Virus record (IMG/VR): IMGVR_UViG_3300017752_003462
Span: 1 to 22,889 of that record
Origin: a virus
Length of the DNA: 22,889 nucleotides
Direction: 5' to 3' (one strand)
Shown here: positions 1 through 6,508 of the stretch, piece after piece
Position numbering within the stretch: the stretch's first letter is position 1
Layout of the letters: each line of letters opens with the position of its first letter
Made by a program: the position numbers and the translations under genes
The notes under the pieces: model-generated
Databases searched by the model: none
Told to the model about the DNA's origin: nothing
What the model saw: the letters and a program-made list of their open reading frames with translations, nothing else

Positions 1-160
1 AACTATGGTTCAAATATAGTTCAAATCTTTTTATCTCCAAATATATTTTTAAAAAATGTTTATGTACATTTCAAAACTCTATTATAATTTGTTGATTGTC
101 AGTATGTTACAAGCAAAAAAAAATTTAATAAAAAATAAACTTTGTTTGTGTTTTATCATA

Positions 161-210
161 CTCGCGGGGGGATAAACCGCGGGGCGTGTCTTTGTCTCTT
201 TCTCTTTTTT
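161..210 (+). terminator. Possible hairpin plus pyrimidine tract
   Basis: CGCGG at 163-167 pairs perfectly with CCGCG at 177-181 around a 9-base loop, and the stem can be extended by a T-G and a C-G pair. A pyrimidine-rich tract (about 189-210, ending in six T) follows after a few bases. This is compatible with a rho-independent terminator of a rightward gene left of the window. The T tract starts somewhat late for a classic terminator, so the call is tentative. Confidence 0.35.
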
Positions 211-219
211 GTGCGAGAT

Positions 220-339
220 GCGGGGGCGGTGCGGTTACCTGTTAAACAATAGGCCATTAATAGACGGACGCGGGGGCGTGATACGGGGGCGGGGGTGCTA
301 CCTGGAGCGGGGGCGGTGCTACCTGGTAACGGCCCAGGG
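220..339 (+). repeat. G-rich island with repeated CGGGGGC / GGTGCTACCTGG motifs
   Basis: Five runs of five G occur here (222-226, 272-276, 285-289, 291-295, 309-313), all on the plus strand. The 12-mer GGTGCTACCTGG is repeated exactly at 294-305 and 315-326, 21 bases apart, and a related copy (GGTGCGGTTACCTG) lies at 228-241. CGGGGGC recurs at 221, 271, 284 and 308. The last copy also forms a small hairpin, CCTGG (322-326) with CCAGG (334-338). The function is unknown; the G runs could form a G-quadruplex. Confidence 0.75.
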
Positions 340-419
340 AAAAGCTAAAAAAATCGGAGCGAAATTTTTAGGATTGCTTTGAGCTGATAAAAAATTTTGA
401 CTTCGGGTTGGGGGGTGGC

Positions 420-442
420 ATATGCATATCGGGGTATTACCC
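420..442. promoter_or_regulatory. Two adjacent palindromes upstream of the first promoter
   Basis: ATATGCATAT (420-429) is a perfect 10-base palindrome. It is followed directly by GGGT (432-435), a 3-base spacer and ACCC (439-442), a short inverted repeat. They lie 30-50 bases upstream of the -7 element at 473-480, where a regulator could bind. Operator function is inference only. Confidence 0.3.
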
Positions 443-472
443 TCAGGTTCTAAATATCTAACATTTTTTTAT

Positions 473-480
473 TATCTTTG
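473..480 (+). promoter_or_regulatory. Bacteroidetes-type -7 promoter element (TATCTTTG)
   Basis: The sequence matches TAnnTTTG, the -7 box known for Bacteroidetes primary sigma promoters, and sits in the longer context TTTATTATCTTTG. No clear TTG at -33 is visible. The ATG of the next gene begins only 5 bases after the element, so its transcript would be leaderless or almost so. Confidence 0.55.
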
Positions 481-633: not shown

Positions 634-846
634 ATGAGTAATTATAAAAAAGGATTAACACCAAGACAACAAGGTTACACAATAAAGGAAGGTCGTTTAA
701 TAAACGATGCTCCAGATGGTATGAGTGGAATAGCCAAAGCAGCAATGGTAAAGAGAGCTGTAAAAAATGATCGTAAGATAAACCAAATAGCAGAAGCCAT
801 AGAGCTTGCTGAAAACAAGAAGAATTTTAGACAATTGTTTTTCTAA
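634..846 (+). CDS. Small basic hypothetical protein (70 aa)
   Basis: The protein is 70 residues long, lysine-rich and predicted mostly helical, with no membrane segment or cysteine. The N-terminus (MSNYKKGLTPRQQGYTIKEG) looks flexible, and residues about 30-65 (AKAAMVKRAVKNDRKINQIA) look like an amphipathic helix or helical pair. It follows the 486-632 gene by one base and is followed 36 bases later by a strong terminator, so the two form a short transcript. Function unknown; the charge pattern would suit a nucleic-acid or partner-protein binder, but no motif shows this. Confidence 0.75.
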   Translation: MSNYKKGLTPRQQGYTIKEGRLINDAPDGMSGIAKAAMVKRAVKNDRKINQIAEAIELAENKKNFRQLFF

Positions 847-1211: not shown

Positions 1212-2825
1212 ATGTCAAAACAGGGCTACATTCCCAAGGATCTTCATTTCGATGAATCGGGTAGAGAAAAACTAATCAGCGGGATTACAAAAATTTCAAA
1301 AGCAGTAAAGAGTACATTAGGTCCTCGCGGTAAAACCGTACTAATCGAATCGCCCGACCACTTACGTGGAATCACTGTAACTAAGGACGGGGTAACTGTT
1401 GCCAAGTCAGTATCTCTTAACGATCCAGTTGAGAACCTTGCAATACAAATAATGAAAGACGCAGCTGAGCGTACTGCAAATTCAGCTGGAGATGGAACGA
1501 CTACTGCTATTGTATTGGCTGAGGGATTTGTAAACGCTGGGCAAAAATATTTAACTGCAAAAAACAACACTACTCAAGTCATTCGTCATGTAAACAGTAT
1601 CGTAGAAGATATGGTAAAAAAACTAACGAAGAACTCAAAGAGGATTACAAAGAAAAGTTTATTGAATGTAGCTAAGATATCTGCTAATAACGATAGTACT
1701 ATTGGCAAACTAATCTACGATGCGTATTCTAAAGTTGGTAAAGATGGTATTGTTACGGTAGAAAAATCTTTGAATCACGAAACCTTTGCCGAAGTAACAA
1801 ATGGTATAAGGATAGACAGAGGGTATACTTCAAACCTATTTATTAATAATCAAAAAAAGGATGAGTGTATATTGGAAGATGTTCGTGTCCTTGTTTGTGA
1901 CCAGGAGATAAGTAACATTCTACAAATAGAAAACATACTAAAACCAGTTATACAAAACAATGATAAGCTTTTAGTCATTGCAGACTGCGGGCAAAACGTC
2001 ATCAATACGTTTGCTGCCAATGTGGTGAGGAATAACCTAAAGCTATGCAACATTGCCCCTCCCTCATTCGGGTATAAGAAAAATGAACTGATGCAGGATA
2101 TAGCTGCAACAGTTGGGGCAACCTACTTCTCTGAGCAAACGGGCGATGACCTAAGCTTGCTTCGTATGGAAGACTTAGGTTTTGCTAATAAAATAATAGT
2201 AGGCAAAGATCAAACTGTTCTAATAAAAAATGATGAGTCAACTGTAGAGCTTAAGACTCGAGTAGATGATCTAAAAATACAGCAAGCTAATACTACCAAC
2301 CCAGTAGATAGAAAGTTTATTGATGAGCGAATAGCAAGTTTAGCTGGAGCAATAGGATGCATTTACGTAGGCGGTAATTCAGATGTAGAACAAAAAGAAA
2401 AATTTGACCGAGTTGATGACTCGGTATGTGCTGTTCGTTCTGCATTAGAAGAAGGGATTGTTCCTGGTGGAGGGATTGCTTTATATGGATTATCTGATGC
2501 TATGGATAATTTAACTCCAGAAGATATAGACTATACTACAGCATTTAATATAGTAAAAGACACATTGTGTCAACCACTATATCAAATATTAGAAAACGCA
2601 GGAATGAATCCAAAAGAAATTATTGGTGATGGCGGTATTTATTTTGAAGGACATAATCACGGATTTGATGTTAAGAATGAAAAGTATGGGAACATGTTTG
2701 ATTTAGGTATAATAGATCCTCTTAAGGTTACTAAGAACGCACTTATAAATGCAAGTAGTGTAGCAACAACAATACTTTCTACTAACGCCATTATTACAAT
2801 GGCAAGAACATACGATAATAAATAA
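1212..2825 (+). CDS. groEL: Phage-encoded GroEL-type (HSP60) chaperonin
   Basis: This 537-residue protein is an ATP-driven group I chaperonin subunit expected to form ring complexes in the host cytoplasm and fold phage proteins. Visible motifs are the nucleotide-binding TLGPRG near residues 36-41, TKDGVTVAK near 57-65, the AGDGTTTA ATP-hydrolysis loop near 92-99, RVDDSVCAVR carrying the Asp equivalent to E. coli D398, and EEGIVPGGGIAL. The apical substrate-binding face keeps GYTSNLFIN, where E. coli has GYLSPYFIN. The length is close to bacterial GroEL (about 545), but the Gly/Met-rich GGM tail is missing and the chain ends TMARTYDNK. It heads an operon with a zinc-ribbon-like gene and groES. 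The ATG follows an A/T-rich leader without a Shine-Dalgarno sequence. Confidence 0.97.
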   Translation: MSKQGYIPKDLHFDESGREKLISGITKISKAVKSTLGPRGKTVLIESPDHLRGITVTKDGVTVAKSVSLNDPVENLAIQIMKDAAERTANSAGDGTTTAIVLAEGFVNAGQKYLTAKNNTTQVIRHVNSIVEDMVKKLTKNSKRITKKSLLNVAKISANNDSTIGKLIYDAYSKVGKDGIVTVEKSLNHETFAEVTNGIRIDRGYTSNLFINNQKKDECILEDVRVLVCDQEISNILQIENILKPVIQNNDKLLVIADCGQNVINTFAANVVRNNLKLCNIAPPSFGYKKNELMQDIAATVGATYFSEQTGDDLSLLRMEDLGFANKIIVGKDQTVLIKNDESTVELKTRVDDLKIQQANTTNPVDRKFIDERIASLAGAIGCIYVGGNSDVEQKEKFDRVDDSVCAVRSALEEGIVPGGGIALYGLSDAMDNLTPEDIDYTTAFNIVKDTLCQPLYQILENAGMNPKEIIGDGGIYFEGHNHGFDVKNEKYGNMFDLGIIDPLKVTKNALINASSVATTILSTNAIITMARTYDNK

Positions 2826-2983: not shown

Positions 2984-3237
2984 AACCAATTGGAAAATAT
3001 ATAGTAATTAAAAAAATAGAAGAGGAAGTAAAAACGGAATCTGGAATTTTATTATCTTCAGAAGACGTATCTTCTATGAGATATCAAAAGGGCAAGGTTG
3101 TAAAACCAGGAACTTTAGTTGATACCATAAAAGAAAAAGATATTATATATTACGATAAAGCTGCGGGTCACTCAATGCTTATAAATGATTTTGTATACAC
3201 AGTAATATCAGAAAGAGATGTTGTTGTTGTTGTTTAA
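2980..3237 (+). CDS. groES: Phage-encoded GroES-type co-chaperonin (85 aa)
   Basis: GroES forms a seven-fold lid on GroEL. This 85-residue protein is a little shorter than E. coli GroES (97). It shows KPIGKYIVIKKIEEEVKTES, then the mobile-loop core G22-I-L-L25 that matches the GroEL-binding Ile-Val-Leu tripeptide. It continues with a KGKVVKPGT strand, KEKDIIYYDK (the VGDxVxF strand equivalent) and a terminal VISERDVVVVV like E. coli LIMSESDILAIVE. It is the last gene of the chaperonin operon, overlapping the zinc-ribbon gene by 4 bases. Its stop overlaps by 4 bases the end of the convergent minus-strand regulator, so antisense interference between the two transcripts is possible. Confidence 0.93.
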   Translation: MKPIGKYIVIKKIEEEVKTESGILLSSEDVSSMRYQKGKVVKPGTLVDTIKEKDIIYYDKAAGHSMLINDFVYTVISERDVVVVV

Positions 3238-3689
3238 TTATCTTCTCGTATCTCTTTATTTATTTTAAGCATATAGTTTCTAAATACTTTATCTCTGAAT
3301 TTAACATCGTGTTTAAATACAGGGTTGTTTACATAGTTTTCAGGAAACTCTTCACCATTTAATTTTGCATAAACATTACTAATCATTCTCTTGGCCTTGT
3401 ATGTGAGCTCGTATAAAGCAGCTTGATTACCTTTTTTCTTTCTCCATTCGTGTATCCAACCATTTTTTATTAGCTCATAGAATTTATTTTTATTCCAGCT
3501 AAATAATTCCTGGTACTCTTCAAATTTAGTTTTGTTAAACAAATGCTCACTATATAAAAAAAGCATTAGCTCTAAGTCTCCAGTAGTTATATTATATTTT
3601 CTTTTAGCCCAATACTTTACTACTCTCCAATATTTAAGATAGTCATGTGTTGGATTTGACCTTGATGTATTTCGGACAGGTACACTCAT
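3234..3689 (-). CDS. Predicted winged helix-turn-helix transcriptional regulator (151 aa)
   Basis: This is the only minus-strand gene in the window. Residues about 17-105 read like a MarR-type winged helix: a first helix HDYLKYWRVVKYWAKRKY, a helix TTGDLELMLFLYSE (36-48), a likely recognition helix WNKNKFYELIKNGW (65-78), and a basic wing EWRKKKGNQAALYEL (81-95). The C-terminal about 40 residues are charged and helical, possibly for dimerisation. It is divergent from the amidase gene; its promoter element (3728-3735) faces and overlaps that of the amidase. This layout suits a regulator acting on its own and the late promoter. The fold assignment rests on sequence pattern only, and the target is inferred. 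Confidence 0.7.
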   Translation of the reverse strand: MSVPVRNTSRSNPTHDYLKYWRVVKYWAKRKYNITTGDLELMLFLYSEHLFNKTKFEEYQELFSWNKNKFYELIKNGWIHEWRKKKGNQAALYELTYKAKRMISNVYAKLNGEEFPENYVNNPVFKHDVKFRDKVFRNYMLKINKEIREDN

Positions 3690-4181: not shown

Positions 4182-4397
4182 ATGCCAACTAAAGACAAAA
4201 ATCGTAAAAAAGTAAGAACCCAAGTTTGTAAGATAAACAAAAAAGGGGTTAAGAAGTGTACTTATAAGATGGTTAAAAGAACACCTAAGGAATTAAAAGC
4301 TTATGATAAAATGAAATCAAGAGGAGCTAATAAAAGTTTAAGTGATCTTGATGTAAGCTATCCTACTAAAGTAATTGATAAAAGAAAAAAGAAATAG
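4182..4397 (+). CDS. Lys-rich mini-protein 1 of the basic cluster (71 aa)
   Basis: 26 of 71 residues are Lys or Arg against six acidic ones. There are two cysteines (C16, C26) near the middle, and the chain ends DKRKKK. No known domain is recognised. It opens a run of fifteen short same-strand genes and starts 12 bases after the amidase stop. The high charge suggests nucleic-acid or polyanion binding, but this is inference. Confidence 0.8.
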   Translation: MPTKDKNRKKVRTQVCKINKKGVKKCTYKMVKRTPKELKAYDKMKSRGANKSLSDLDVSYPTKVIDKRKKK

Positions 4398-4950: not shown

Positions 4951-5124
4951 ATGCCAACAGTAAAGTATAAGTGTGGAGACACAGGTAAAATGAAAACAAA
5001 ACAATTTCCTTACAATGCAGTAGGTAAAGCTCAGGCAGCTGAGTTTGCTAAAACAATGAAGGGTAGTATGAAAAACAATCCAGGATACGGGATGGAAAAA
5101 AAGATGGGTTCTAAAATGTATTAA
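4951..5124 (+). CDS. Mini-protein 6, Lys/Met-rich (57 aa)
   Basis: 57 residues starting MPTVKYKCGDTGKMKTKQFP, with one cysteine (C8) and a Met/Gly/Lys-rich C-terminus (GYGMEKKMGSKMY). The section PYNAVGKAQAAEFAKTMKGS resembles a small helical unit. It starts after the AATAATTATG leader and is coupled to the next gene by TAATG. Function unknown. Confidence 0.75.
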   Translation: MPTVKYKCGDTGKMKTKQFPYNAVGKAQAAEFAKTMKGSMKNNPGYGMEKKMGSKMY

Positions 5125-5351
5125 TGGGAGAGTTAAAAAAATGGCGTGAAGAAAATTGGGTTCGTATCGGTACTGACGGTAAGATAAAAGGCCCATGCGG
5201 TACTTCTAAAAATAAGAAGAACCCTGATCGTTGTTTACCTATGGCTAAGGCCAAAAGACTATCTAAAAGAAAACTTGCTGCTACTGCTCGAAAGAAAAAG
5301 AAAGAAGGATCAAAAGGAAAGCAATTTGTAAAAAACGTAAAAGGAGTATAA
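5124..5351 (+). CDS. Basic mini-protein 7 with WxxENWVRIGTDGKIKGPCG motif (75 aa)
   Basis: The 75-residue protein begins MGELKKWREENWVRIGTDGK. It continues GPCGTSKNKKNPDRCLPMAK (23-42), with C25 and C37 that may pair or bind metal, then a Lys/Arg-rich helix and tail. 25 of 75 residues are basic. The layout (Trp-rich start, GPCG, RCLP, AKAKRLSKRKLAATARKKKK) is a familiar type of small phage protein without a proven role. It is coupled by TAATG to the preceding gene. Confidence 0.85.
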   Translation: MGELKKWREENWVRIGTDGKIKGPCGTSKNKKNPDRCLPMAKAKRLSKRKLAATARKKKKEGSKGKQFVKNVKGV

Positions 5352-5353
5352 CA

Positions 5354-5476
5354 ATGGCAAAAAAATTTAAAATACACAACATGTATAGTAAAACTGGAAT
5401 CAAAAAAGTTGCTAAAACAATGAAAGATCATTTAGCTTTAAAGAAAAAGGGATATACTCATACTAAGAAAAAGTAA
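5354..5476 (+). CDS. Basic mini-protein 8 (40 aa)
   Basis: 40 residues, 14 of them lysine, reading MAKKFKIHNMYSKTGIKKVA then KTMKDHLALKKKGYTHTKKK. It contains no cysteine and is probably one amphipathic helix with basic ends. It starts 2 bases after the preceding stop and is coupled to the next gene by TAATG. Function unknown. Confidence 0.7.
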   Translation: MAKKFKIHNMYSKTGIKKVAKTMKDHLALKKKGYTHTKKK

Positions 5477-5730
5477 TGCCAACACCAAGAAAAGGAAAAG
5501 CTAAAGTAAAGGTTACTGCTTCTGGAAAAAAAGTAAGTTATGGCCAAGCAGGAAAAGCAAAAGGTGGTGGACCAAGGGTAAGACCTGGTACTTCCAAAGG
5601 TGATTCATATTGTGCCAGAAGCTATGGAATAAAGATGGGCTTACCTATTGGTAAAAGAAATGATCCTAATACTCCTAATAATTTATCTCGTAAGAGATGG
5701 AAGTGTGTAGGTAAAAAATCAAAAAGATAA
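5476..5730 (+). CDS. Basic mini-protein 9 with YCARSYGIKMG motif (84 aa)
   Basis: 84 residues with 24 Lys/Arg. The first half is low-complexity and Gly/Lys-rich (KAKVKVTASGKKVSYGQAGK). The second half has VRPGTSKGDSYCARSYGIKM, then NDPNTPNNLSRKRWKCVGKK. Cysteines C46 and C77 sit in compact conserved-looking segments, so there may be a small fold with a flexible basic N-terminus. I recognise the GTSKGDxYCARS...LSRKxWKC pattern from other environmental phages, where it is uncharacterised. It ends the first sub-block of the cluster, 6 bases before an internal promoter element. Confidence 0.85.
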   Translation: MPTPRKGKAKVKVTASGKKVSYGQAGKAKGGGPRVRPGTSKGDSYCARSYGIKMGLPIGKRNDPNTPNNLSRKRWKCVGKKSKR

Positions 5731-6152: not shown

Positions 6153-6305
6153 ATGGCAAAAAAGAAAACAGCCACAAAAAAAAGTACAACCACAAAAAAA
6201 AAGGTTGAGAAAAAGGAAATTATAAAAGAAGCTGATGTTGTAAGAAACTTAGTTCAAGTAGTTCCCTACGTTAAAAGAAAAACTATATATAATACAAACA
6301 AATAA
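6153..6305 (+). CDS. Mini-protein 12 with H1-like Lys/Thr N-terminus (50 aa)
   Basis: The first 21 residues (MAKKKTATKKSTTTKKKVEK, then K) are almost only Lys, Thr and Ala, like a histone H1 tail. The rest (EIIKEADVVRNLVQVVPYVK) is a normal mixed helix and strand segment, followed by a short basic end. It starts 28 bases after the previous gene, behind an AT-rich leader containing the near-match TAAGTTTA. It is coupled by TAATG to the next gene. Function unknown. Confidence 0.75.
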   Translation: MAKKKTATKKSTTTKKKVEKKEIIKEADVVRNLVQVVPYVKRKTIYNTNK

Positions 6306-6508
6306 TGGAGTTTAGAATTTCACAACCCTTAGCAGCCTCACCCTCAGGAAGAGGATATGGAAGAAGAGCAATGCGTAAAGCAAAACGAAAAGCTCAAAGA
6401 GGAGCAAGAATTGGACAAAAGTTAGCAAACATTTGTTCAAGAAGCCTAAAGAGCGGTAAAGGATGCAGAAATAAAAAAGGATCTGTAAAAGGATTTAAAG
6501 GAAGATAG
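6305..6508 (+). CDS. Arg-rich mini-protein 13 (67 aa)
   Basis: 67 residues with 11 Arg and 10 Lys but only one acidic residue (E2), the most arginine-rich protein of the cluster. Residues 12-36 are Gly/Arg/Lys-rich (SPSGRGYGRRAMRKAKRKAQ), followed by ARIGQKLANICSRS and a Gly/Lys tail. There are two cysteines (C44, C54). The composition is protamine-like. It is coupled by TAATG to the preceding gene. A virion or nucleoid role is inference only. Confidence 0.8.
   Translation: MEFRISQPLAASPSGRGYGRRAMRKAKRKAQRGARIGQKLANICSRSLKSGKGCRNKKGSVKGFKGR

Follow-up and report, generated by a model that had tools for sequence, protein, structure and literature searches.

The window, that is, the whole stretch of DNA that was analyzed, comprised a complete record of 22,889 bases with a G+C content of 33%, and it contained a 70-aa ORF, groEL, groES, lysis genes, structural genes and genes for a terminase, a portal and a virion structural protein. 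We identified it as a 22.9-kb fragment of a Flavobacteriia podovirus of approximately 60-65 kb, representing part of the late arm. The terminase showed a sequence identity of 71% to that of MW202828 ('Podoviridae sp. ctfjg026', 60.9 kb, circular) and of 31-44% to those of Elemovirus, Cellulophaga (Pervagoviridae, Pachyviridae) and Tenacibaculum phages, and a blastn search of positions 1-1000 against phages returned no match. Of 34 related records, 33 contained the 70-aa protein, in every case immediately 5' of groEL, and it belonged to no Pfam or PHROGs family. Additionally, several small, very basic, Lys/Arg-rich ORFs followed one another in the late arm between 4182 and 6508 (4182-4397, 5124-5351, 5476-5730 and 6305-6508), and ORFs resembling them were found in the relative L005. 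A single minus-strand ORF of 151 aa (3234-3689) lay within the rightward arm after groES and was kept in L005 (7194-7643).

The window opened with a region of approximately 450 bp 5' of these genes. The features of this region and of the first two genes were as follows:

11-43, minus strand: leftward Bacteroidetes-type promoter motif from the motif scan, TTG-spacer-TATATTTG, with a -7 box complementary to CAAATATA at 11-18
84-160, plus strand: conserved left block, TTTTAA..CTGAT..TCAAT..TTA and then TTTTGTTT, its columns conserved when 35 relatives were aligned
165-189, plus strand: first G-run slot, CGGGGGGATAAACCGCGGGGCG, where relatives have TTAAGGGAAGG, at about -300 from the rightward promoter motif as in relatives
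213-326, plus strand: hypervariable G-rich core with direct repeats at 213-241, 276-304 and 309-326 and no conserved columns in the alignment of relatives
221, plus strand: CGGGGGCGG in the slot at -250, which holds RGGGAAGG in relatives
272-313, plus strand: four G5 runs compatible with a permissive G-quadruplex motif (loops 8, 1 and 13), not conserved in relatives
324-479, plus strand: conserved single-copy block of about 155 bp, profile match E=2e-24
340-355, 388-404, 410-415 and 433-462, plus strand: parts of this block, namely the A-tract box AAAAGCTAAAAAAATC, TAAAAAATTTTGACTTC, a G6 run and GGGGTATTACCCTCA..ATATCTAA
469-480, plus strand: rightward promoter motif TTATTATCTTTG with the -7 box TAnnTTTG at 473-480, conserved at the block end in relatives
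634-846, plus strand: first rightward gene, encoding the conserved 70-aa protein
1212-2825, plus strand: phage groEL, the anchor for locating relatives

The same type of -7 box, TAnnTTTG, thus stood at both edges of the region, on the minus strand at 11-18 and on the plus strand at 473-480, and the predicted promoter calls read TATCTTTA/G rightward and TATATTTG leftward. The leftward motif contained a TTG -33 box, whereas the rightward motif did not. In the motif scan, several complete relatives also carried a leftward motif at the corresponding position, about -425 to -534 relative to the small ORF, and 13 of the 44 islands contained CAAATATA (0.56 expected). On sequence grounds, both edge motifs presumably act as promoters. 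TTTTGTTT of the left block occurred in 24 of 44 islands (2.2 expected), and its neighbor CGGGGGGATAAACCGCGGGGCG appears, from its position, to be the equivalent of TTAAGGGAAGG in the relatives.

The G-rich island between these edges had been described in the first-pass annotation as carrying five G5 runs on one strand. The strand was right, as all runs were on the plus strand, but the count was six between 160 and 340 (starting at 166, 222, 272, 285, 291 and 309), and the further G6 run at 410 lay outside these limits. Other reported properties were borne out. In particular, the 12-mer GGTGCTACCTGG was found in exact copies at 294 and 315, 21 bp apart; the six copies of CGGGGG in the window were all inside the island, compared with 1.06 expected and a number that 0 of 100 shuffles reached; and the island contained no ORF of at least 60 aa. 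The core was made up of a direct repeat of 29 nt, whose copies at 213-241 and 276-304 were 79% alike and which recurred in part at 309-326, and an 18-nt direct repeat (288-305 and 309-326), and the direct self-similarity of positions 155-345 exceeded that of all 300 dinucleotide shuffles. Tandem Repeats Finder reported no array in the island of the window, where the repeats were dispersed. A search of viral contigs for an exact 24-mer of the repeat found none; a shorter repeat pattern retrieved eight contigs of 54-69% GC, which we regarded as chance matches.

To place the island among relatives, GroEL was used as a query, which gave 80 loci from other contigs. The island is isolated within the window, as the first-pass annotation had stated, but it recurs at the same place in relatives, where its absence would have counted against it. 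In most of the GroEL-found loci, G5 or C5 runs clustered at one spot 5' of groEL, with a G+C peak at the same spot. Among 49 non-redundant loci, the approximately 200 bases 5' of the conserved block peaked at 55% G+C compared with a locus mean of 33%, and G exceeded C on the same strand in 46 of them; L013 and L014 were among the few relatives with no clear G/C peak. Close relatives conserved the core about as well as groEL (median 0.86 and 0.87, respectively), whereas the cores of the window and L003 were 0.58 alike against a shuffled baseline of 0.56, with about 58% G+C in both. As judged from these comparisons, the core sequence is replaced between lineages, and its place, composition and strand bias are kept. 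Direct repeats exceeded those of shuffles in 24 of 35 relatives (p<=0.05).

The strongest G-rich motif common to the islands was RGGGAAGG. The form AGGGAAGG was found in 20 of 44 islands against 0.25 expected, and either form in 28 of 44, with 41 copies on the plus strand and four on the minus strand. The motif was located mostly 220-300 bp 5' of the rightward promoter and was rare in the rest of the genomes. The window carries CGGGGGGATAAA and CGGGGGCGG at slots where relatives have RGGGAAGG, and because the same slots are occupied, its G5 runs may be diverged copies of this conserved element. At the island position of MW202828 (L082, 42870-43200), we observed a dense GC-rich simple repeat (CGCGTGTGTGTACGCG-like); this stretch is annotated as a hypothetical protein gene (42896-43219), a gene call that may be spurious.

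The block downstream of the core was examined with a profile from which the window and its nearest relative had been left out; the window matched this profile at 324-479 with E=2e-24. Exactly one match, always on the plus strand, was found in 73 of 81 loci, and ten near-complete genomes with sizes of 60-67 kb (G003, G007, G008, G010, G014, G015, G017, G018, G019 and G022) also had one copy of the block each. Its distance to the rightward promoter motif was nearly fixed within the clade. Searched alone as a DNA pattern, the A-tract block retrieved 14 contigs out of 2.9 million; those inspected carried GC-rich, often repeated DNA on the 5' side of the match and the small ORF, groEL or both on the 3' side, and the genes diverged wherever the flank was sufficient. 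The exact block pattern was absent from 84,980 bacterial and archaeal genomes. Profile matches were also obtained in cultured phages, at or close to the point where their gene arms diverge, namely in Elemovirus (E=2.7e-6), phi38:1 (E=0.001) and Calle_1 (E=6e-6, small target). MW202828 gave a weak match (0.03), and the match of phi13:2 was not significant (0.43), although it lay near the divergent switch of that phage.

The divergent intergenic regions of phi38:1 and Calle_1 (Pervagoviridae) and of Elemovirus thus carry an A-tract/C-run block homologous to that of the window, with some differences. Their downstream genes differ from those of the window clade, groEL is not directly downstream, and only the A-tract part was detected, the promoter part being undetected in all three. 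As in the window clade, G-rich repeats were present 5' of the block in phi38:1 and Calle_1; in these two phages they contained GTGGAAGGTA and lay in a G-rich stretch with two GTGGAAGG repeats; that of phi38:1 ranked in the top 0.02% of G-rich windows within the 50 kb examined. Elemovirus had the block and no G-rich stretch.

The near-complete genomes revealed the setting of the region. In L005 (genome G003), genes to the left of the island pointed leftward and those to the right rightward, and MW202828 was alike. In the ten genomes, the island was located at the divergent switch between a leftward arm with the replication genes and a rightward late arm. Genes for a BT4734-like/PriCT primase-helicase, an exonuclease, a Sak annealing protein and a helicase lie in the left arm of G003. 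In all ten genomes, the primase-helicase was located 7-11 kb, and a stand-alone DnaA domain IV-like protein of about 100 aa 5-9 kb, to the left of the island; the latter proteins are related to the DnaA domain IV (PF08299) protein of MW202828. No DnaA-box cluster was found at the island in the window or the ten genomes. The GC-skew analysis that had been proposed did find a switch from negative to positive at the island in 10 of 10 genomes, with the reverse switch approximately 15 kb leftward. However, the skew follows the gene strand, and in the window it became negative at 3201-3600, over the minus-strand gene. Gene direction is thus enough to account for the switch, which on its own is no evidence for an origin. 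In a rough comparison of the ten genomes, with imperfect island cut-outs in G008, G014 and G017, the repeat type of the island was uncorrelated with the DnaA-like protein (Spearman -0.24) or the primase (0.13), and G003 and G007 had primases that were 94% identical and islands that were unlike.

Several explanations were weighed against these observations. The region may serve transcription control only, with operators and activator sites located between early and late promoters that point in opposite directions, the core consisting of lineage-specific operators or a GC-rich insulator that separates the promoters, and no origin. The promoter motifs at both edges, the near-constant spacing of block and rightward promoter, and a skew that gene direction alone explains all agree with this account, which we consider a tentative and rather unlikely possibility. 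The A-tract part speaks against it: because phi38:1, Calle_1 and Elemovirus gave a match to this part and none to the promoter part, it seems to act beyond the rightward promoter. A packaging start or genome end (a pac or terminal-repeat site) is improbable. The Tenacibaculum phage Gundel_1 (Pachyviridae, 31% terminase identity) has a PhageTerm-predicted 322-bp terminal repeat inside its divergent intergenic region (L127 1-322; L140 28512-28833), and short contigs often end near the island. However, the conserved block was not found in the Gundel_1 repeat, the ends of that phage are themselves a prediction, and the short contigs end at differing bases, as would be expected if assemblies broke within variable, repetitive sequence. 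Moreover, the cut points of near-complete contigs are scattered, and their ends overlap by 77, 99 and 127 bases, lengths suggestive of the k-mers used in assembly.

We judged it very unlikely that the island functions as a G-quadruplex, in DNA or RNA. The four G5 runs at 272-313 do fit a permissive motif, as the first-pass annotation had proposed, and the G4Hunter score of 2.36 was the window maximum, but the canonical motif (loops <=7) was not satisfied by these runs and the capacity was not conserved: 7 of 49 relatives had it, compared with a mean of 4.6 in dinucleotide shuffles (24 of 200 shuffles reached 7). The island is non-coding and GC-rich, as a structured RNA might be, yet this suggestion was not supported, and we hold it to be highly improbable. 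The folding energy was at shuffle level (z = +0.75 for the core and -0.94 for the core with flank), Rfam returned no match, and no consensus structure emerged on either strand from 12-31 relatives, a test that is weak for a fast-changing core that aligns poorly. An assembly artefact or chimeric junction, which had been raised earlier and which the position of the island only 160 bases from the record end might suggest, can practically be discounted. Both conserved flanking blocks were present in the same order and at approximately the same spacing as in independent contigs, and we rejected both the artefact and a random junction because the island is positionally conserved in relatives.

The island thus belongs to a non-coding element that occurs once, holds a fixed position where the two arms diverge and is bordered on either side by promoter motifs. 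We give about even credence to the reading that it is the hypervariable, repeat-bearing half of a divergent early/late control region that doubles as a replication origin; an origin had earlier been offered as one option among many and is part of the reading favored here. We infer that the region acts as an early/late control hub, and a replication origin probably lies within it, because the block outlives changes of the downstream genes across families, stands beside lineage-specific repeats and resembles the combination of lambdoid iterons and AT-rich tract (PMC7466680). A phage protein would bind the repeats or G motifs of the core, the adjacent AT-rich A-tract block would melt, replication would begin next to the promoter that serves the replication genes, and the rightward promoter would be switched on for the late genes. 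The conserved place and composition, the single-copy block, the RGGGAAGG motif, the repeats and the replication genes of the left arm were counted in favor of this reading. Counted against it were that the skew switch gives no independent support, that the repeat type does not track the DnaA-like protein or primase, that DnaA-box clusters are absent, that a few relatives have no clear G/C peak and that the Elemovirus block has no G-rich core. In a more speculative and improbable variant, selection would act on composition and strand bias and not on sequence: a G-rich, constantly rebuilt repeat tract would be maintained beside the A-tract block, and the transcript or nascent strand would form a persistent R-loop-like hybrid that primes replication. 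If true, this would be an origin type whose recognition part has no fixed sequence.

The control region and probable origin favored here were compared with known systems. Ori-lambda combines O-protein iterons with an AT-rich tract (PMC7466680), and lambdoid origins likewise have direct repeats beside an AT-rich A-tract, in single copy, at an arm boundary with replication genes. In contrast, the island lies outside any initiator gene and is G-rich, phages whose replication proteins are nearly identical carry different repeats in it, and its origin role is putative. Direct repeats and an adjacent A-tract stretch, both iteron-type features, were found in the window, whereas repeat variation linked to the initiator was not (DnaA-like protein, primase). 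Because this defining feature was tested and not found, we did not class the region as a lambdoid-type origin but as a phage divergent control region, possibly an origin. The crAss-like phages are Bacteroidetes podoviruses with two opposed gene blocks of replication and structural genes, and the available part of the source gives neither an origin nor a promoter for their divergent region (PMC10136315). They share these opposed blocks with the window clade and are a different virus group by terminase. To our knowledge, no G-rich island has been described in the crAss-like divergent region. A review of the Crassvirales calls the DNA replication mechanism of these phages unknown. The open-licence papers searched contained no description of the region and no origin paper for the flavophages studied here. 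In Gundel_1, where the predicted terminal repeat also lies in the divergent gap, the block was undetected.

For these phages, the block provides a DNA signature by which they can be found with no protein query. The block and its G-rich partner are shared with Cellulophaga phages in culture, and the block alone is shared with Flavobacterium phages. Together, the single-copy block and its hypervariable G-rich partner offer a defined place at which the origin and early/late control may be tested.
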